From: Verrucomicrobiota bacterium
GTDB taxonomy: Bacteria > Verrucomicrobiota > Verrucomicrobiia > Limisphaerales > UBA1319
Direction: 5' to 3'
Assembly (NCBI GenBank): GCA_022709905.1
Contig: JAKLHY010000013.1
Span: forward strand, 1 to 64,000
DNA: 64,000 nt
Position 1 is the first letter of the stretch, and the number at the start of each line of letters is the position of its first letter. The notes under the pieces were generated by a model, which saw only the letters and a list, made by a program, of their open reading frames with translations, did not search any database and had not been told where the DNA came from. This document shows, piece by piece, positions 11,479-31,251 of this stretch. A program made the translations under genes and the position numbers.

Positions 11479-13218
11479 ATGATGAAATCCATCCTCCTGC
11501 TGATCTGCGCGTCGGGGCTTGTCAGCGCCGCCGTCCCGGGTTTTGAATCCGCCGCGCCCTCGCCCTTATCCACCTTTTTTGTGCCTCCGGCGCGACTCCT
11601 GTGGCAAAGCGAATCGGGAGTGGCCAATGCGGGGTCGTTGCTTCGGTCTCATGCGGGGCAAGCGGTCCTGAAAGAACCGCAACCGCCTTGCGTATTGGCG
11701 GCTTCCTCCGGGGCTTCGGCGGGAGTGTTGCTGGATTTCGGCAAGGAGATTCAGGGTTATCTCGAATTATTTACTCCCATGACGGCCAGCAAGGATCCTG
11801 TCCGCGTTCGGGTGCGATTCGGGGAGAGCGCGACAGAGGCCATGGCCGAGCTTGGGGGGAAACAAAACGCGCAGAACGACCACGCCTTGCGCGACCAGAT
11901 CGTGACCTTGCCGTGGCTCGGCAAAATCACTGTTGGGCCGAGCGGATTTCGATTTGCGCGGATTGACGCGGTCGATCCGGCTCATCCCGCGCAGATCAGC
12001 CAGGTGCGGGCGGTGCTTCAGATCCGGGACATTCCCTATATTGGCTCGTTCCGGTGTGATGACAATCGCCTGAATCGGATCTGGGAGGTTGGCGCCTATA
12101 CCGTCCATCTGAACATGCAGGATTACCTTTGGGACGGCATCAAGCGCGACCGGCTGATCTGGTTGGGGGACATGCATCCCGAGGTCAGCACGATTCAGGC
12201 CGTGTTCGGGTTCAACGAGGTCGTGCCGCGTTCGCTCGATTTGACCCGTGACATCACGCCGGTGACCGAATGGATGAATGGCATTTCGAGTTACTCGATG
12301 TGGTGGGTCCTCATCCATGAAGACCTATGGATGCACCAGGGCAATCGCGAGTATCTGGCGGCGCAACAAGGTTACCTGACACCGTTGCTCAAGCGCCTGG
12401 CCAATCTCGTGGGGCCCGATGGCAGGGAGCGAATTGATGGCTTGCGGTTCCTCGACTGGCCGAGCTCGCCAAACCAACAGGGCGTGACCGCCGGCCTGCA
12501 AGGTTTGTTGGTGATGACCCTGGAAAGCGGCGCGCGGCTGATGACAGTTCTGGGCGACTCGGAAACCGCGAAGATTTGTTCCGAGGCTGCCGCGCGGGGA
12601 CGGCGGGTGGCGCCTGACGTGAACGGTTCCAAGTCCGGCGCGGCGCTGCTGTCGCTGGCAGGGATGCTGGATGCGAGGCAGACCGCCGAGAAAGTGCTGA
12701 AGGCCGGCGGACCGAAGGGGGTATCGACCTTCTACGGGTTTTACGTGCTTCAAGCTCTGGCAAAGTCGGGCGACGTCGAGACGGCGCTGGATTTCATCCG
12801 GACTTACTGGGGGGCGATGCTGGATCTGGGCGCGACGACGTTTTGGGAGGATTTCAACCTCGAGTGGACGCACAACGTGGCGCGCATCGACGAGTTGGCG
12901 CCGCCCGGCAAGAAGGACGTGCACGGCGACTTTGGCGCGTACTGCTACGAAGGTTTCCGCCATAGTCTTTGTCATGGCTGGGCAAGCGGTCCCACAGCCT
13001 GGCTCAGCCAGAATGTGCTTGGGATCAAACCGCTGGCTCCGGGATGCAAACGGGTCCGAGTGACCCCGCAGTTGGGCAATCTGAAATGGGCCGAGGGGGC
13101 TTATCCCACTCCGGAAGGACCGATCCGAGTTCGGCATGAACGCAAACCAGACGGTTCTGTGGCCTCGAAGATTGACGCGCCACCGGGAATCACGATCGAA
13201 TCCCCGTCTCAGCCATGA
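11479..13218 (+). CDS. GH78-like alpha-L-rhamnosidase, secreted
   Basis: The 579-residue product carries a signal peptide (MMKSILLLICASGLVSAA) and an (alpha/alpha)6-barrel enzyme of the GH78 type. Visible signatures are IGSFRCDDNRLNRIWEVGAYTVHLNMQDY, the motif DGIKRDRLIWLGDMHPE matching the DxxxRxxxxWxGD block of alpha-L-rhamnosidases, FWEDFNLEW, and the C-terminal LSQNVLGIKPLAPGCKRVRVTPQLGNL, which is typical of the closing beta-sandwich. It is somewhat shorter than classical GH78 enzymes, lacking extra N-terminal modules. The gene starts 38 bases after the VIT gene; the next gene's ATG overlaps its stop (ATGA, 13215-13218), so those two are coupled. Removal of terminal rhamnose from polysaccharides is inferred from the family. 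Confidence 0.85.
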   Translation: MMKSILLLICASGLVSAAVPGFESAAPSPLSTFFVPPARLLWQSESGVANAGSLLRSHAGQAVLKEPQPPCVLAASSGASAGVLLDFGKEIQGYLELFTPMTASKDPVRVRVRFGESATEAMAELGGKQNAQNDHALRDQIVTLPWLGKITVGPSGFRFARIDAVDPAHPAQISQVRAVLQIRDIPYIGSFRCDDNRLNRIWEVGAYTVHLNMQDYLWDGIKRDRLIWLGDMHPEVSTIQAVFGFNEVVPRSLDLTRDITPVTEWMNGISSYSMWWVLIHEDLWMHQGNREYLAAQQGYLTPLLKRLANLVGPDGRERIDGLRFLDWPSSPNQQGVTAGLQGLLVMTLESGARLMTVLGDSETAKICSEAAARGRRVAPDVNGSKSGAALLSLAGMLDARQTAEKVLKAGGPKGVSTFYGFYVLQALAKSGDVETALDFIRTYWGAMLDLGATTFWEDFNLEWTHNVARIDELAPPGKKDVHGDFGAYCYEGFRHSLCHGWASGPTAWLSQNVLGIKPLAPGCKRVRVTPQLGNLKWAEGAYPTPEGPIRVRHERKPDGSVASKIDAPPGITIESPSQP

Positions 13219-15365
13219 GCGCCCACAGACGGACAATTCCGGCGGGGATTATCCTGGCCCTAGTGGTTTGGTCCCAGGCGAACATTTCAGCGGGCGAAGC
13301 CCCAGCGTGGAAGACGAATATCCTGAGCGGTCCGATTCGGGCGTTCTGCTCGGACTTCAACTGGGGGTCGGGGGGGCCGAATGGATTCGCCCGGCCCGGG
13401 CTCTGGGCTGATGCGGATCCCGCCGAGCACATCTTTTGGTACGAGCAACTTGGCTGCAATGTGATCCAAACCTTTGCTGTGTCATGCAACGGCTATGCCT
13501 GGTACAAAGGCGGTTGTGTCCCGGAGCAGCCCGGGCTGAAACACGATTTTCTCACCGACATGGTTCGATTGGGCCACCAAAAGAAGCTGCTGGTGGCTGG
13601 CTACTTTTGCATCGGCGCCAATACCCGATGGGGACAGGAGCACCCCCACCTCAGCTACGGTATTCCGAGCGCCTATCACTTGCCTTTGACGGACGAATAC
13701 CTGGATGACCTCGGTGCGGCCATAGAAGACGCCCTGCTGAAAACTGGCATGGACGGGTTTATGATTGACTGGGTTTGGTGCCCGACCGATGCGGTTCGTC
13801 AGGAGGCCAATGGCGGTCGGTGGCTCGATGCCGAAAAGCGGTTGTTCGAAAAATTACTCGGTAAGCCTTTTCCCGGAGAGAACCAGCTCAGCGCAGCCGA
13901 CCGTCTGGACTACGAGCGCAAGGCCATTGACCGTTGCTGGGCGCGCATCCGCAACGCCGCCAAGCGTGTCCGACCGGACTGCGTGATTTGGCTTTCCTGT
14001 AACCTGATCCGCGATCCATCCATCGTGGGTTCGGCAATGTTAAGGGAGGTGGATTGGGTCATGGACGAATCCGGAACACCTGAGGCCATGAAAGAGACTG
14101 CCCCTATGTTTGGAGAGCGAACCCGGCAAGTCCTCTGCCTGGCGGGTTGGGGTGATCGTCACAAAACGCGCGAGCTGCTTGCGGATTCAACTTTGGCCGC
14201 TTATGGCATTTATGGCTTTAGCAAACCCGAGTCTGAATTCCGATCTCTCCCAATGCCGATCCCGGTATTTTTGAGCCGGCCGATTGAGACGTTTCAGGGC
14301 ATCGATCGCAATATCGCCGCCATGGCCAGGCACTTTAACCACCGGCCGCCGGATTTTGTTGCCACCTCCGCCCAGGGAATTGGCGGCGGAAACGGGGCAG
14401 GGGATGCCAGCGTGATGGTGCTCCAAGGCAAGACAGGGATGGGCGTCGGGAAACATGTGGTGTTCGTCAGCGGAGACGAGGAATATCGTTCCGAGGAATC
14501 GCTCCCGATGCTGGCTCGAATTCTTGCCGGCCGGCACGGATTCAAATGCACGGTGCTCTTTGCGATCCATAAGCAGACGGGCGTGATCGATCCGAATACC
14601 GTTGATAACATTCCCGGTCTTGAGGCTTTGGAGACCGCCGATCTGATGGTTATTTGCACTCGGTTTCGAGAGCTTCCAGACGAGCAGATGCGGCATGTCG
14701 ACGCTTTTCTCCAATCCGGCAGGCCCGTGGTTGGGATTCGCCCGGCTGTCGTGGCTTTTCGCAACAAGCAAGGGAGCGCGTTCTTCAAATACAGCTCCGA
14801 CAACAAGTCCCGGGATTACACCGATGGTTTTGGCCAACAGGTGCTCGGCTCGACCTGGATTTCGCATCACGGTGTTCATGGCAAGGAGAGCACGCGGGGG
14901 GTGCTGGTTGAGTCCATGAAATCGCATCCCATTCTGTGCGGGGTCGGCCGCATGTGGGGGCCGACGGATGTCTATACCCTTCGCACTCCGATTCCGGATA
15001 ATGGCCAGGTGCTCGTCATGGGTTACGTAATACGGGGCATGTCGCCTGACGATGATCCCAGTGACAAACCACCCATGCCGATGGCTTGGACAAAGTCCTA
15101 TTCCAGCCCGAAAGGCCATGGCCGTGTTTTTATGACCACGATGGGCGCGAGCCAGGATTTTGCCGATCCGAACTTCCGTCGTTTGGTGGTGAATGCCTGT
15201 TTTTGGGCCGTCGGGCTTGAGGACCGGATTACGCCGCAGATCAACGTGAACGTGGTCGGCGATTACCAGCCATCCCCCTATGGTTTCGATCGGTATCGCA
15301 AAGGCATGAGGCCTGGTGTTCTAGCCGAGGAAGCCACTCAGGCGCTGAGCAAGCTAGTACCGTGA
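13215..15365 (+). CDS. Secreted fusion: glycosidase-like TIM barrel plus ThuA-like domain
   Basis: The 716-residue product has a signal peptide (hydrophobic residues about 9-20, cleavage near ISAGE). The first 400 or so residues read as a TIM barrel related to GH29/alpha-glycosidase-like folds: CSDFNWGSGGPNGF, GCNVIQTFAVSCNGYAW, a strand ending GFMIDWVWCP (near residue 190) and DCVIWLSCN. The part from about residue 415 is a ThuA-like (trehalose-utilisation, class I glutamine amidotransferase-like) domain: HVVFVSGDEEYRSEESLPMLARIL, LETADLMVICTRFRELPDEQ, GRPVVGIRPA and GHGRVFMTTMGAS. ThuA domains occur widely in Planctomycetes and Verrucomicrobiota next to sugar enzymes, often alone; the fusion is less usual. 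It is translationally coupled to the rhamnosidase-like gene. Confidence 0.8.
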   Translation: MSAHRRTIPAGIILALVVWSQANISAGEAPAWKTNILSGPIRAFCSDFNWGSGGPNGFARPGLWADADPAEHIFWYEQLGCNVIQTFAVSCNGYAWYKGGCVPEQPGLKHDFLTDMVRLGHQKKLLVAGYFCIGANTRWGQEHPHLSYGIPSAYHLPLTDEYLDDLGAAIEDALLKTGMDGFMIDWVWCPTDAVRQEANGGRWLDAEKRLFEKLLGKPFPGENQLSAADRLDYERKAIDRCWARIRNAAKRVRPDCVIWLSCNLIRDPSIVGSAMLREVDWVMDESGTPEAMKETAPMFGERTRQVLCLAGWGDRHKTRELLADSTLAAYGIYGFSKPESEFRSLPMPIPVFLSRPIETFQGIDRNIAAMARHFNHRPPDFVATSAQGIGGGNGAGDASVMVLQGKTGMGVGKHVVFVSGDEEYRSEESLPMLARILAGRHGFKCTVLFAIHKQTGVIDPNTVDNIPGLEALETADLMVICTRFRELPDEQMRHVDAFLQSGRPVVGIRPAVVAFRNKQGSAFFKYSSDNKSRDYTDGFGQQVLGSTWISHHGVHGKESTRGVLVESMKSHPILCGVGRMWGPTDVYTLRTPIPDNGQVLVMGYVIRGMSPDDDPSDKPPMPMAWTKSYSSPKGHGRVFMTTMGASQDFADPNFRRLVVNACFWAVGLEDRITPQINVNVVGDYQPSPYGFDRYRKGMRPGVLAEEATQALSKLVP

Positions 15366-15391: not shown

Positions 15392-15675
15392 GCGGGATTT
15401 ATCCCGCAGCGCCGGTTGTCACAATAATAACCCCGCGCCGGGTGCGGCAGGATTCGTCCCATCAGGGACAACCGATCATAGCCCACCGTTTCAACGATGG
15501 ATTCCGATGACGCCCCGTGCCCCCATCCCAAAGCCCCTCCAGGGGCGAAAGAAGATTCTGGGTTTATCTTGTGGCCTGAATGCAATCCTTGTCCCATGCC
15601 TCTCACCCGAGCTCTTGCGTCCCAGTCGGGACTCCTGATCCGGTCGTTCGGTCCCCCCAGCGATGAATCGCTGGG
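15392..15675 (+). repeat. Hairpin-array element, copy 2 (longest)
   Basis: Within the 607 bases between genes, at least six minimal-loop hairpins follow each other: GCGGGAT/ATCCCGC (15392-15407), GTCCC/GGGAC (15456-15469), CCACCGTT/AACGATGG with one mismatch (15483-15500), GCCCCT/AGGGGC (15533-15546), GTCCC/GGGAC (15619-15632) and CCCAGCGAT/ATCGCTGGG (15656-15675). The last 100 bases (15576-15675) match 30967-31066 at all but three positions. The array starts 26 bases after the stop of the barrel-ThuA gene, in the same orientation relative to transcription as the other copies. The remaining intergenic part (15676-15972) shows no gene that I can support. Confidence 0.8.
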
Positions 15676-15972
15676 TGATTTTCTAAGGATTTCAAGCCCC
15701 CCAGCGCGGGCTAATGGTATCGGGTCCATCTGGAGAAAGTGCGATTGGAGGCGTTGCGACTGAAAACTCCCAAATTTTAGGGATAGACAGGTCTCGACGC
15801 GACCTTACACTGCCCGAAAACGCGTGGTATCTACCTGGCTAATTACCCTTTATCTGGCGAGACATTCTGCTCGACTTTGCCGGGCTGGAGCAAATCGGCG
15901 GGCGCCTCCGGCGAACCGGATTGAGTTCCAATGGGAGGCAGTCAGGCGACCGCGACACAAGACACACAAGCT

Positions 15973-25922: not shown

Positions 25923-28900
25923 ATGATCCAGGCAACGGAACTACGACAGCAGCAGATGGGATTCTTATTGCTGACTTTTCTGGGCGTACTAGTTCCCAGT
26001 TTTACCTACGGAGCCGCAAACGGTGTGGAGGTGATCCGAGTGGGGGGATATCCGACTGGTGGCATCTCAAAGGGTGTCGCTGTGCGGGAGGCTTATGCTT
26101 ACGTAGGAGCAGGGACTGCAGGCCTGCAAATTCTTGACGTAGCGAATCCGGGATCGCCGGTCTGGCTTGGCCAATCTCTCACGGACAGAAGTGCTGACCG
26201 AGTTGTTGTGGCTGGGCACAATGCCTACGTAGTAGAGACTGGTCTCAATCTCGGCAACCTAGCCGGCTTGGGCGTGATCAACGTGCACAACCCTAGGGCA
26301 CCACTGCGGTTAAACGAGCATATCACCCCGGGGGTTGCCATGGACGTTGCGATCACTGGCAACTACGCTCTTGTCGCGGACTTGGGAGGCGGGCTCAGCG
26401 TGATCGACATAAGTAGTCCTGCATCGTTGCTCCACGTTGGTAGTGTTCGGACAATCGGATGGGCGACTGCCGTGGAGTGTTTAGGAAAATATGCCTACGT
26501 GGCATGCCAAGGCGACGGTCTCCAGATCATTGACATTGGCAATCCTGCGTTACCAGTAATTGTGGGAGCGTATGACACGTTAGGGACTGCATTAGGCGTT
26601 GCCGTAAGCGGCAATACCGCATTCTTGGCGGACGGCGAAGCAGGTCTTGACGTGATCGACATTAGCAACCCTGCATCGCCTGCTCGGCGGGGAGGCTGCG
26701 ATACCAGCGGGAAAGCATATGACGTTGCCATCGCAGGACAGTACGTGGTCATAGCTGACTGGGATGCGGGAGTACAAATAATCAATGTGTGCAACCTCGC
26801 GGCACCTGTCCGTGTAGGGGGGTGTGACACTGGCGGCAAGGCACGTGGGATTGCCATCGCGGGTAACTACGTCTACGTGGCGGACTGGGACGCGGGACTT
26901 CAGATCATCAGAGTGACCCTCTCCAAGCCTGAATTCGTCGCAACGAACCTCGTTCTCTGCCTGAGCGAATCGGATCCGCGTCATCGCACTTTTTCAGTTA
27001 CCACACAATACCCGGCTGGCACCTCGCTGGATTGGCATCTCGGTGATAGTCTTGTGCATAGTGGCGCGGAGTTCACACCACCGTTGGTTAGTGGAACCTT
27101 TATCTACACGGTTGTGGCCACGAGTTCAGGCCTGGGCTCAAGCGAGGCAGCTACAGTGACTTTGACCGTGGTGGAGACTCCGAAGCCGTTTGTGGTAGAT
27201 CCGGTACGTATTATCGGGCGCTGCCTAGTGGGATCCGACCTTAGTCGTTTTGTGGTTACAAACCCGCCCACCAGAGGTCAACTGAGGTGGTACGACGGTG
27301 AGGTAGAGGTAGGGGTCGGGGCGACTTTTATTGTGCCGGTTGAAGGGGCCGGAACATACGCCTATGAGGTCAGGGCCATTAGTGAAGAGGGTTGTTTTGC
27401 TGAGGCGACTGCTGTGGTTCTCCGTGTTGTGGACAACGGTGTGATTTTTGGCGACCTGAAAGCGACCGGAGCGCAAGGACGACCATTTGAGTATCAGATA
27501 GAGGTTTGCGGTGGCGGTGGGCCGTTTGGAAACATCGACTTCTATGCTTCAGGCCTGCCCGAGGGGTTATCCCTTGACCAAAAGACAGGCGCGATATCGG
27601 GCATCCCTCTGGTGGCTGGAGAATTTGATGTTGAGCTTCGAAGCTACTACCACACCTTCGATATACGAGAACACCGTTGGGACACCAATATCCTGGGACT
27701 GACTCTCGTTAGTGGTGCCCCCAAGATTACGGGCAGCCTGGCAGCTTCTGGTAAGCAGGGGATGCCTTTCTTCTATGCCATCACCGCAACCAACAACCCC
27801 ACAGGATTCCTAGAATCGGGGTTAACGCATGGCCTGTGGCTAAATCCTACGAACGGGGTAGTAACCGGGACGCCTCAGGTGAGTGGCGGTTTTAACGTCC
27901 AAATAACAGCGACCAATCGCTGGGGCTCAGATACCAGAACTCTGTCGCTGATCCTGACCAGCGGCGTGCCTTCGATCACTAGCGCGCTTGCCGCGAGCGG
28001 CAAACAGGGGGTGGCCTTTACCTATGCAATCGCTGCCAGCAACGAACCGACAGGGTTTGCGCAATCTGGATTGCCGCTCGGGCTTTCGTTGGATACGACC
28101 AGCGGGGTGATTTCCGGAATCCCGAAGGTTAGCGGCAGCTTCGCAGTCTCCATCACCGCCAGCAACCCGTGGGGGTCCGACACGAAGATGCTTGCGCTGG
28201 CCCTGGCAAGCGGCGTGCCTTCGATCACCAGCGCCCTCACTGCAAGCGGCAAGCAGGGTGCGACCTTCACCTATGCAATCGCCGCCAGTAACGAACCGAC
28301 GGGGTTTGCGCAATCTGGATTGCCGCTCGGGCTTTCGTTGAATACGACCAGCGGGGTGATCTCCGGAATCCCGCAGATCAGCGGCAGCTTTGCCGTTTCT
28401 CTTACCGCCAGCAACCCGTGGGGGTCCGACACGAAGATACTTGCACTGGCCTTGGCAAGCGGCGTGCCTTCGATCACCAGCGCGCTTGCCGCCAGCGGCC
28501 AACAGGGGGTAGCCTTTACCTATGCAATCGCTGCCAGCAACGAACCGACGGGGTTTGCGCAGACTAGCCTGCCGGCCGGGCTTTCGTTGAACGGGACCAG
28601 TGGGGTGATCTCCGGAATCCCGCAGATCAGCGGCAACTTTGCCGTCTCTCTTACGGTTAGCAACCCGTGGGGGTCTGATACGAAGATTCTTACCCTCGTT
28701 CTGACCAGTGGTGTGCCGGTCATCACCGGCAGTTTGACAGCCAATGGAAAACAAGGCATCGCATTCAGCTATGCCGTCAGGGCGGACCACAATCCCACCG
28801 GCTTTGCCGCCGCCGATCTGCCCTCAGGATTGGAAATCGATGGCACGACCGGGGTGATATCAGGACGCCCCCTTGCGGGCGGGACGTTCAGCTCAACGAT

Positions 28901-30956
28901 CACAGCCACGAACAACTACGGTGCCGACACACGCGCTCTTGTCATCACGGTGGCATCCTCGGTGCCTGTGATCACGAGCGTCACGACTGTTTCGGGTCAG
29001 GAAGGCCAAAGCTTCAGTTACACCATCCAAGCCACTGAATCGCCCACCGAGTTCGGAGCGGACGGGTTGCCGGCGGGGCTGAGTGTGACAGCGGGGACAG
29101 GCGCGATCTCGGGAAAGCCGATGTATGGCGGCAAGCAGGAGGTCGTCATTTGGGCGCGGAACGCGTGGGGGACGGGCAGCAATACGCTCGTTCTCAATTT
29201 GGCGTATGCTGCGATCGGCGGGCTTTCGATCGGGGATGTGACGAATTACTATTCCTCTCCGTATCTGGTTGATTTCGAGTTTTCGCTGCGGGACAACGAT
29301 GATCCGATGGTTGGGCATGCGGTGGTGAGATCGTCCTCGGAGCTGAAGGTGGTTTGCCGGGAGGATGGGCGGAGTATCAGTCCGACCGAAACGGCGTTTG
29401 TGGTGGAGCCGAGAAACCGGAAGCAGCTCAAGAGCTACCTGGTGTTGGACTACACGGCGAGCATGCAGTTTGGGGCGCCAGACACCGATGGGGACGGGGT
29501 CTCCGATGCGATCGAGAACATGGAGGCTGCGGCCAAGACATTCATTAGCCAGCAGCCCGCGGAGTCCCAATATGGCGTCTACGAATTTCACCGGGAGGAC
29601 CGCGCGCCCGTTCGCATTAGCCGGTTTACATCCGACAAGACCGCCTTGCGCGCTGCCATCGATGGCATTCTCGCCAAGGAGATCAAGTCATGGTTTGCCG
29701 GCAGCCGTTGCTGGGACGCGTTGGCGGCGGCTGTGAAAGAGTTCGGCCCGCCCAATCGGGACGAGCAGCGGTATGTGGTGTTTTTGTCCGACGGGCGGGA
29801 CGAGTCAAGCACGAACGCCACTCCGGCACAGATCGTGACGGCGGCGCGGGAGCGGGGCGTGAAGCTTTATTGCGTGGCCTTTGGTTCCGAGATCGACACG
29901 GCAACGCTGCAGCTCCTGACCGGTGAGACGCGGGGACGGTATTATGTGGCGAGCGGGGCTGGAGATCTTTCCGCGCAGTTTGCGCAGGTGGGAAAGGATC
30001 TCGACGGCCAGTATTTGCTTCGCTGGGCGACGCTAAAACAGGGGAGCGCGCCTTTTCGTCCCTCGTTCGAGGTGACGGTGGATGGCAAGACCGCGGCGTT
30101 CAACACGAACCTGGCTTTGCCCTCGCGGGTGCCGGACTATGTGCCGACCGAGAATGCCGGTGACCGCCTGGCCGGAGCGCTGCGTCTGGTGGCGGACGCA
30201 GACGAAAAGCCCAGGTCGGTCACTCTGCGGGCGGCGTATGTGCCGCGGTACATCCGGAATCTGCGGGTGCATTACCGGGCTAATTACCCGTGCACAACCC
30301 GTCTGCGGTCCGCCGCAACTGGGGAGATTCTGAATGGCTGGAACCTGAAGGAGAGTGAAGACGGTCAGGGAGGAAAATGGCTGGAGTTAACCAGTCCATC
30401 CCCAGCCGATCTGAAGACCAGCATCCGGTACGGAGCGATGGGCAACTTGGTGCGGTTTGACTTCACGGAGCTCCGGTCTGCACAGGACGCCTTCAGCGTA
30501 TTCGAGGTGGACAATGCCATTTATTTGGAAACGGGCGGGCAGAGTTTTGCCCTGGAGAATGCGGGCCAGTTCATCACCGTGATGCAGCCCACGCCGCACG
30601 GCACGCCGCCGAACTGGCTGGCGGCGCATGCCTTTACCGGCGACCTAGCGGCAGCGGAGATGAGCGATCCAGACCGCGATGGCTTGCTGACGTGGCAGGA
30701 GTACCGGGCGGGGACGGACCCGCGCGACCAGGCATCCAGCCTCGTGATCCGGCCCGCCGGCCAGGGTGGGGCACCTTTCCATGTGGCCTTCTCCTCGGTG
30801 GCAGGCAAACACTACCGGGTGGAGGCGACCGTTGATTTTGGCGGTTGGCAGGTTGTCCAGGGCGGCTTAGTTGGCACGGGCGAGTCGATGGTCGTCACTG
30901 ACACCCGCCCGTTGGCGGGGGCGCGTCAGGTGTATTACCGACTGGTGGTGGAGTGA
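25923..30956 (+). CDS. Giant secreted LVIVD / He_PIG / vWA protein
   Basis: The 1,677-residue protein starts with a signal peptide (hydrophobic MGFLLLTFLGVLVPSFTYG, residues 12-30). Residues about 40-335 are LVIVD-type repeats of roughly 42 residues (AYAYVGAGTAGLQILDVANP, NTAFLADGEAGLDVIDISNP) forming a propeller. Residues about 340-500 are PKD/Ig-like. From about 500 to 1097 come He_PIG-type putative Ig repeats (GLSLDTTSGVISGIP), four of them on an exact 83-residue period. A vWA domain follows (about 1168-1366, LVLDYTASMQF with a D-x-T-x-S variant of the metal site, a TSP3-like DTDGDGVSD insertion, YVVFLSDGRDESS). Near residue 1583 is an EF-hand/dockerin-like DPDRDGLLTWQEY, then a C-terminal beta module. 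It is probably a surface adhesin. The 5' third appears less GC-rich than the 3' part. Confidence 0.88.
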   Translation: MIQATELRQQQMGFLLLTFLGVLVPSFTYGAANGVEVIRVGGYPTGGISKGVAVREAYAYVGAGTAGLQILDVANPGSPVWLGQSLTDRSADRVVVAGHNAYVVETGLNLGNLAGLGVINVHNPRAPLRLNEHITPGVAMDVAITGNYALVADLGGGLSVIDISSPASLLHVGSVRTIGWATAVECLGKYAYVACQGDGLQIIDIGNPALPVIVGAYDTLGTALGVAVSGNTAFLADGEAGLDVIDISNPASPARRGGCDTSGKAYDVAIAGQYVVIADWDAGVQIINVCNLAAPVRVGGCDTGGKARGIAIAGNYVYVADWDAGLQIIRVTLSKPEFVATNLVLCLSESDPRHRTFSVTTQYPAGTSLDWHLGDSLVHSGAEFTPPLVSGTFIYTVVATSSGLGSSEAATVTLTVVETPKPFVVDPVRIIGRCLVGSDLSRFVVTNPPTRGQLRWYDGEVEVGVGATFIVPVEGAGTYAYEVRAISEEGCFAEATAVVLRVVDNGVIFGDLKATGAQGRPFEYQIEVCGGGGPFGNIDFYASGLPEGLSLDQKTGAISGIPLVAGEFDVELRSYYHTFDIREHRWDTNILGLTLVSGAPKITGSLAASGKQGMPFFYAITATNNPTGFLESGLTHGLWLNPTNGVVTGTPQVSGGFNVQITATNRWGSDTRTLSLILTSGVPSITSALAASGKQGVAFTYAIAASNEPTGFAQSGLPLGLSLDTTSGVISGIPKVSGSFAVSITASNPWGSDTKMLALALASGVPSITSALTASGKQGATFTYAIAASNEPTGFAQSGLPLGLSLNTTSGVISGIPQISGSFAVSLTASNPWGSDTKILALALASGVPSITSALAASGQQGVAFTYAIAASNEPTGFAQTSLPAGLSLNGTSGVISGIPQISGNFAVSLTVSNPWGSDTKILTLVLTSGVPVITGSLTANGKQGIAFSYAVRADHNPTGFAAADLPSGLEIDGTTGVISGRPLAGGTFSSTITATNNYGADTRALVITVASSVPVITSVTTVSGQEGQSFSYTIQATESPTEFGADGLPAGLSVTAGTGAISGKPMYGGKQEVVIWARNAWGTGSNTLVLNLAYAAIGGLSIGDVTNYYSSPYLVDFEFSLRDNDDPMVGHAVVRSSSELKVVCREDGRSISPTETAFVVEPRNRKQLKSYLVLDYTASMQFGAPDTDGDGVSDAIENMEAAAKTFISQQPAESQYGVYEFHREDRAPVRISRFTSDKTALRAAIDGILAKEIKSWFAGSRCWDALAAAVKEFGPPNRDEQRYVVFLSDGRDESSTNATPAQIVTAARERGVKLYCVAFGSEIDTATLQLLTGETRGRYYVASGAGDLSAQFAQVGKDLDGQYLLRWATLKQGSAPFRPSFEVTVDGKTAAFNTNLALPSRVPDYVPTENAGDRLAGALRLVADADEKPRSVTLRAAYVPRYIRNLRVHYRANYPCTTRLRSAATGEILNGWNLKESEDGQGGKWLELTSPSPADLKTSIRYGAMGNLVRFDFTELRSAQDAFSVFEVDNAIYLETGGQSFALENAGQFITVMQPTPHGTPPNWLAAHAFTGDLAAAEMSDPDRDGLLTWQEYRAGTDPRDQASSLVIRPAGQGGAPFHVAFSSVAGKHYRVEATVDFGGWQVVQGGLVGTGESMVVTDTRPLAGARQVYYRLVVE
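27962..28957 (+). repeat. Four direct repeats of exactly 249 bases inside the vWA gene
   Basis: The phrase GGCGTGCC at the start of each unit recurs at 27962, 28211, 28460 and, diverged, at 28709: a fixed 249-base (83-codon) period. Units one to three are nearly identical at the DNA level, for example the block GCAATCGC(T/C)GCCAG. Each encodes one He_PIG-like immunoglobulin domain. The similarity points to recent tandem duplication or ongoing gene conversion. Confidence 0.9.
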
Positions 30957-30966
30957 GCAAAGTGCC

Positions 30967-31090
30967 CTGAATGCAATCCTTGTCCCATGCCTCTCCCCCG
31001 AGCTCTTGCGTCCCGGTCGGGACTCGTGATCCGGTCGTTCGGTCCCCCCAGCGATGAATCGCTGGGCTATGCTCTTCCGCCCTGCCGGGC
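30967..31090 (+). repeat. Hairpin-array element, copy 3
   Basis: The 100 bases at 30967-31066 match 15576-15675 with three differences. It contains GTCCC/GGGAC (31010-31023), the core palindrome CCCAGCGAT/ATCGCTGGG (31047-31066) and a short GCCC/GGGC (31079-31090). The flank GCTATGCTCTTCCGCCCT is shared with copy 1. It starts 10 bases after the stop codon of the giant vWA gene. The rest of this 618-base gap holds the PEP-CTERM remnant and an AT-rich stretch (about 31460-31545). Confidence 0.85.
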
Positions 31091-31251
31091 TGGAGCGACG
31101 CTTCCAGGGATTCGGTCGTCGTGAATCGAGTTCAGGGATCGGTTGACGATGAATGTCCACCGCATGCCTGCGTGCGGGGACAGATCTTGAGATCAACGCA
31201 TCGGCACAGACCGCGTTGCGGACTGCGACTTGTCCGTCTGGCAAAAACAAT

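Follow-up and report, generated by a model that had tools for sequence, protein, structure and literature searches.

Acido-Lenti-1 as the probable outer half of three-hairpin DNA ends of small IS200-like mobile elements

Several described systems come close to the repeat analyzed here. REP/REPIN-RAYT systems combine tagged palindromes, inverted pairs and mosaics with a low-copy Y1 transposase, a single cognate one for each repeat family (PMC3733652, PMC3116915, PMC8266576). Our repeat shares these properties but differs in having a transposase that by its motifs belongs to class 1, a tag with a TAGCC core and a variable first base, and a tripartite end with two extra polar small hairpins; instead of the GT[AG]G found at the palindrome foot of GTAG REPs, the genome studied here has ATAG. 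Insertion sequences of the IS200/IS605 family, such as IS608 and ISDra2, likewise have an HUH/Y1 TnpA and hairpins at their ends, but their left and right ends differ, with one hairpin each, whereas the ends described below are mirror images. Here the copies are also few and divergent, the gene is outnumbered by nonautonomous units and the space between the ends leaves no room for tnpB; subclass 1.1 elements are near-identical and multicopy with differing ends, whereas we found one tnpA with mirrored ends. TIRYT/TIRtrons resemble our repeat in that long inverted repeats enclose a Y1 transposase and the ends are multicopy, but the TIRYT proteins are mostly HTH-tailed members of subclass 2.1, with GGGGWSAS as the motif common to the repeats (PMC3733652), whereas the protein here shows a subclass 1.2 signature.

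TnpA_Y1 subclass 1.2 has been described as lacking REPs, generally lacking IS-type terminal structures, and occurring mostly in Cyanobacteria and Bacteroidetes (PMC6006769, Quentin et al. 2018). Our proteins resemble this subclass in that they have WQ and Y---Q--HH, measure ∼148 aa including a conserved tail at the C terminus, and occur in few, divergent copies; they differ in that hairpin ends flank on both sides most of the members found here, which come from Verrucomicrobiota, Planctomycetota, Acidobacteriota and others. Acido-Lenti-1 (Rfam RF01687), in turn, is filed as an sRNA gene from Acidobacteria and Lentisphaerae with no assigned function, and was considered a probable RNA that is probably not cis-regulatory (PMC2864571, Weinberg et al. 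2010). A June 2026 paper states that little is known of its function and reads its occurrences downstream of Tannerella protease genes as possible regulators (PMC13298647). Among open-licence papers, we found no report tying either Acido-Lenti-1 or subclass 1.2 to REP-like ends.

Copies of the repeat and their three-hairpin layout

The window, the whole stretch of 64,000 nucleotides that we analyzed (contig C35, 1-64000), belongs to a Verrucomicrobiota genome of 8.17 Mb in 347 contigs. An earlier, sequence-only reading had noticed three copies of one element in it and stated that copies 2 and 3 (15576-15675 and 30967-31066) differ at 3 of 100 bases. This is exact, with three mismatches per 100 positions, and the flanks of the two copies are unrelated (identity of 23% upstream and 44% downstream). 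Copy 1, at 162-258 on the minus strand, shows 89% identity over 97 bp. All three copies are real, but copy 2 turned out to be an inverted pair whose left half had been missed. A covariance model of the unit, R1, found four units in the window (31003-31094, +; 159-251, -; 15612-15701, +; 15453-15553, -) with E values of 5e-20 to 3e-13, so the likeness of the repeats is not due to chance. The following features were delimited.

30962..31002, plus strand: leader ahead of H1, common to copy 2 (96% identity over 105 bp with 15571-15675), starting 6 bp past the stop codon of ORF 25923-30956
31003..31094, plus strand: solo end unit (copy 3), H1-H2-H3, 92 bp; R1 74.8 bits, E 5e-20, a score partly due to construction since this copy was included in R1 training
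31010..31023, plus strand: small hairpin H1, GTCCC-ggtc-GGGAC, from the sequence with pairs counted
31047..31066, plus strand: palindrome H2, CCCAGCGATGAATCGCTGGG, the same in nearly all A-type copies of the genome and covarying between genomes
31067..31070, plus strand: foot tag CTAT (read inwards, ATAG), positioned like the GTAG tag of REPs; C-T-A invariant or almost invariant
31079..31090, plus strand: small hairpin H3, GCCC-tgcc-GGGC, from the sequence and DNA fold
31047..31091, plus strand: H2-H3 half, matching Rfam RF01687 Acido-Lenti-1 (40.5 bits, gathering 37)
15612..15701, plus strand: copy 2 end unit, which forms the right arm of its inverted pair; R1 51.5 bits; H3 degenerate or lost beyond 15675
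15453..15553, minus strand: divergent unit of type B that mirrors the copy 2 unit and forms the left arm of the inverted pair, missed earlier; R1 58.9 bits
159..251, minus strand: solo end unit (copy 1); R1 73.5 bits
162..206, minus strand: H2-H3 half of copy 1, matching Rfam RF01687 Acido-Lenti-1 (40.0 bits, gathering 37)

The unit is ∼92 bp long and contains three hairpins in a layout that is fixed throughout the order: H1, a small hairpin with GTCCC or GCCCC, is followed after ∼20-30 nt by H2, a palindrome of 8-9 bp beginning with CCC, then by the tag CTA(T) and, after ∼8 nt, by H3, the second small hairpin. As DNA, the unit at 31003..31094 folds with a z score of -2.4 on the plus strand and -2.9 on the opposite strand. 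The hairpins hold CGTCCC, a likeness to the CGTC-REPs (PMC3733652), a candidate that we rejected because CGTC-REPs are not associated with a transposase and their stems are arranged differently.

Both sides of the stems had changed in 102 cells among 60 units, compared to 32 in shuffles, a figure that taken alone leans upwards because these units had passed a palindrome filter. Among 127 distinct units found with the model, the H1 and H2 pairs comprised 1,759 Watson-Crick, 7 G-U and 7 A-C combinations. An A-C on one strand is a G-U on the other, so neither strand tolerates G-U as an RNA under selection would be expected to. This pairing points to a stem structure kept at the DNA level, where it would fit selection or hairpin-templated repair. 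Inspection of the sequence found no T-run behind any hairpin of the unit, which rules out an intrinsic terminator. The hairpins thus do not look like the RNA-processing signal that had been suggested for the element, as they lack a T-run and G-U is no commoner in their stems than A-C (7 versus 7).

Neighboring genes and copies without a transposase gene

The three copies of the window lie 3' of their upstream genes (265-1872, -; 13215-15365, +; and 25923-30956, +) and in the same direction, as the earlier reading had pointed out. With Pfam, one of these genes matched ThuA/GHL6 and another LVIVD/VWA/Ig-like, while the third had no match. The LVIVD, VWA and Ig-like domains belong to the 1677-aa product of ORF 25923-30956 (+), a gene that also holds tandem internal repeats at 27750-28774, offset by ∼249 bp and 78% identical over 777 bp.

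This placement did not extend beyond the window. In G026, a relative rich in units (at least 142, with no more than 150 candidates scored), the 20 unidirectional single-orientation loci comprised 8 on the same strand as the gene and 12 on the opposite strand (p = 0.50), and convergent and divergent loci were equally frequent (8 each). Outside the window, the solo unidirectional units of the window's own genome comprised none on the same strand and four on the opposite strand, and five inverted pairs sit in divergent intergenic regions. Orientation was scored on individual loci, in which genes were called from codon usage by a simple procedure that places starts roughly and blurs distances more than strands. 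The common direction of the three window copies is a small-sample effect, and copy 2 has no single orientation because it is only half of an inverted pair. The proposal of a 3'-UTR element was accompanied by a genome-wide orientation check, and with orientation coming out random we abandoned it.

The window's genome contains about ten inverted pairs. The pair at 15453-15553 (-) and 15612-15701 (+) has the structure of a REPIN, two tagged palindromes in inverted orientation with the tags outside, the tag of its plus half being degenerate. Pairs without tnpA share the ends of the autonomous element, the relation expected of MITEs, and an internally deleted tnpA in G205 (see below) adds to it. 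Many of the solo units of G026 (L267-L299) have an additional module upstream of H1 with the palindrome CCCCCAACTGAAGTTGGGGG-TTAATGAGAAG, and they also share a downstream segment, forming mosaics like BIMEs.

A transposase gene between mirrored ends

The earlier reading had called for a search for a RAYT-like transposase. The densest cluster of units in the window's genome indeed surrounds a single IS200-like gene of 148 aa (C301:30811-31254, +), with 13 units within 6.5 kb of this contig and the next unit beginning within 10 bp of the tnpA stop codon, but the protein is not a classical RAYT: against the NCBIfam model REP_Tyr_transpos (NF047646) it reached only 22.1 bits, below the cut-off of 80, and instead of the Y---NP motif of class 2 RAYTs, which is absent from it, it has Y---Q--HH. 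It matched the NCBIfam IS200/IS605 transposase with 70 bits (cut-off 55), and profile matches to the IS608/ISDra2 transposases in the PDB had E values of ∼1e-17. The motifs DHAH, WQ and YIQGQMEHH are followed by a C-terminal tail, with DHVH and Y---Q--HH in homologues; WQ, Y---Q--HH and ∼148 aa with a tail make up the signature of TnpA_Y1 subclass 1.2, for which 70 homologues were listed, and by these motifs the C301 transposase fits that subclass. The earlier suggestion of a mobile element is borne out to the extent that the repeat very probably consists of mobile DNA. R1 counted 38 units in the genome (E < 1e-3) versus this one subclass 1.2 tnpA, and no units were found near its 12 other Y1_Tnp matches within the fetched flanks of up to 1.5 kb. 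Several of these other matches (L029-L040) are intact frames of roughly 250-400 aa.

The upstream side of the C301 tnpA is atypical in that it has an oppositely oriented unit truncated in H3. Between this unit and the tnpA start (∼30722-30810 of C301; L018, C301:24000-43000) lie ∼100 bp of very AT-rich sequence unlike the flanks of the homologues, which may be a separate insertion or rearrangement. A spacing of ∼358 bp in C301 had brought up an integron attC-like array, which we discarded on finding tandem A+B inverted units around tnpA.

TnpA homologues were present in 83 of 146 genomes of the order, most of them metagenome-assembled and of varying quality (the window's genome has an estimated contamination of 5%). 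An inverted repeat between the 250-bp flanks scored above the 99.9th percentile of shuffles at 60 of 67 tnpA loci. A scan of species-representative genomes gave 80 tnpA loci in Verrucomicrobiota, Planctomycetota, Acidobacteriota, Bacteroidota, Hydrogenedentota, Chlamydiota, KSB1 and other phyla, and inverted flank repeats exceeded 99.9% of shuffles at 66 of the 76 loci tested, leaving ∼10-13% of tnpA loci without clear inverted ends. The published lack of REPs or terminal structures in subclass 1.2 does not apply to these 60 of 67 and 66 of 76 loci, the absence of REPs being an observation of the earlier survey (PMC6006769) and not a trait that defines the subclass. Direct similarity between the flanks was also frequent (56% of tnpA loci), because arrays and complete inverted pairs often adjoin tnpA.

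The two ends of a given tnpA tend to resemble one another most. In 68 of 118 nonredundant loci, the locus's own partner end was the best among 118 candidates, where ∼1 would be expected, and the mean partner score of 63.8 compares to 20.1 for other partners and to 24.4 for the highest of 10,000 permutation means. H2 varies among lineages yet agrees at both ends of one tnpA, as with CCCGGCGTTGAAACGCCGGG at L066, CCCAGCCATAAATGGCTGGG at L070 and CCCAACGTTGAAACGTTGGG at L071. R1 was trained on palindrome-filtered units near tnpA and on the window copies, so its unit counts are not an independent test, whereas the flank-alignment, partner-matching and Rfam-based tests are independent of it.

The small hairpins have a polarity: across the 118 loci, on the strand that runs inwards to tnpA, the three-base loops are GNA in 241 cases and TNC in 51. 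GNA loops form very stable DNA mini-hairpins. TAG directly followed by a hairpin occurred at both ends on the inward strand at 50 of 118 loci and on the outward strand at 6. The tagged hairpins of the 118 loci share the core TAGCC, and their tag is ATAG in 53 cases, GTAG in 50, TTAG in 27 and CTAG in 8; ATAG is the tag in the window's genome, and some relatives (L079 and L083) have GTAG. At the Bacteroidota tnpA loci L211, L214 and L220, small hairpins with GGTAGA occur without the long palindrome H2, so the tripartite end is not universal.

Acido-Lenti-1 and the proposed element

Rfam gave two matches above the gathering score of 37 in the window, both to RF01687 and covering exactly H2-H3 of copies 3 and 1, and 57 matches at 60 tnpA loci, every one of them Acido-Lenti-1. 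The H2-H3 half thus scores above the gathering threshold both in the window and at tnpA ends of many phyla. In oriented loci matched on both sides, the RF01687 matches are mirrored around tnpA: at L170 they lie on the minus strand at 9 and 79, ahead of tnpA at 188-634, and on the plus strand at 689, 759 and 829, and L202, L204, L205 and L208 also have mirrored matches. Among 115 genomes of the phylum, 16 had RF01687, 14 had TnpA and 13 had both (Fisher p = 1.6e-13), a co-occurrence obtained without R1; RF01687 was found in 13 of the 14 TnpA carriers versus 3 of the remaining 101 genomes. All three genomes with RF01687 only contain tnpA fragments, and in one of them, G205 (contig C15, L339), tnpA has suffered an internal deletion and retains an intact end on either side, the intermediate expected in the decay of an autonomous element to a gene-less pair. 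In G237, the one genome with TnpA only, the ends are laid out in the same way, with a GTAGCC tag, but score below the Rfam cut-off.

The sRNA class in Rfam, the strong hairpins and the regulatory role suggested near protease genes (PMC13298647) would all suit a transcribed noncoding RNA or a 3'-UTR processing or stability element. We consider this very unlikely, as orientation is random with divergent sites as numerous as convergent ones, units form inverted pairs and stand mirrored around one transposase gene, and the stems have no G-U excess and the hairpins no T-run. It is less likely again that the repeats are classical REPs or REPINs of a RAYT (class 2 TnpA_REP). Tagged palindromes in inverted pairs, a low-copy transposase, mosaic clusters, many solo copies and the GTAG tag of L079 and L083 all recall that system, but the protein is of the subclass 1.2 type without Y---NP and falls far under the REP_Tyr_transpos cut-off, the window's genome has its own tag, ATAG, each end has three hairpins, and no units lie close to the genome's 12 other Y1_Tnp matches.

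The tnpA of C301 is surrounded by an array of repeats and its upstream side is irregular, as might be seen if the units were passive host repeats, such as nucleoid or gyrase sites, hit by tnpA insertion in the way that ISPpu9 inserts into REPs. We regard this as the least probable reading, since both ends of each tnpA match yet differ among lineages, presence and absence of RF01687 and TnpA are linked across the phylum, and the G205 deletion derivative retains intact ends.

We show that gene-less units share their ends with tnpA-bearing elements, that ends and protein co-occur, and that the palindromes are conserved as DNA. Judging from sequence comparison, units of the repeat, whether single or in inverted pairs, are most probably the ends of a small IS200-like mobile element, a reading to which we assign a probability of close to 0.9. 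The full element would span ∼0.7-0.9 kb and consist of a three-hairpin end, a single gene for an HUH/Y1 TnpA of subclass 1.2 of ∼150 aa, and a mirrored end. The copies without the gene (inverted pairs, solo ends and mosaics) would be nonautonomous derivatives comparable to REPs/REPINs and MITEs.

The biochemistry of IS608 and TnpA_REP (PMC8266576) is the source from which cleavage is deduced. TnpA would contact H2 and, at the foot of this palindrome, the NTAGCC tag, thereby binding the end in its single-stranded form and cleaving near the tag. The element would move as single-stranded DNA, probably at replication forks. By analogy, the tag may well act as a guide for the nearby cut, in the place of the GTAG guide of REPs. 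The correct strand could be marked in part by the small GN(N)A-loop hairpins, whose polarity is towards tnpA. Due to the mirror-symmetric layout, both strands present the same tagged hairpins on their 5' sides.

RF01687 is filed as an sRNA, whereas our analysis places it at transposase genes of many phyla, probably as the outer half of the end of a DNA element. It is likely that Acido-Lenti-1 is not an RNA and instead represents the outer half of the DNA ends of an unrecognized REPIN-like class, spread over many phyla and driven by class 1 (IS200-type) TnpA of subclass 1.2, with a tripartite end made of a polar GN(N)A hairpin, an NTAGCC-tagged palindrome and a second polar hairpin. This suggests that the Acido-Lenti-1 occurrences near Tannerella protease genes are mobile-element remnants instead of regulators.

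The finding joins two orphans, a candidate RNA from 2010 and a transposase subclass published without REP or IS properties, and if it is true, the two would explain each other. Acido-Lenti-1 annotations would then mark the ends of mobile elements and not RNA genes, regulatory readings would need revision, and the system would offer a testable class 1 counterpart of REP/RAYT domestication.
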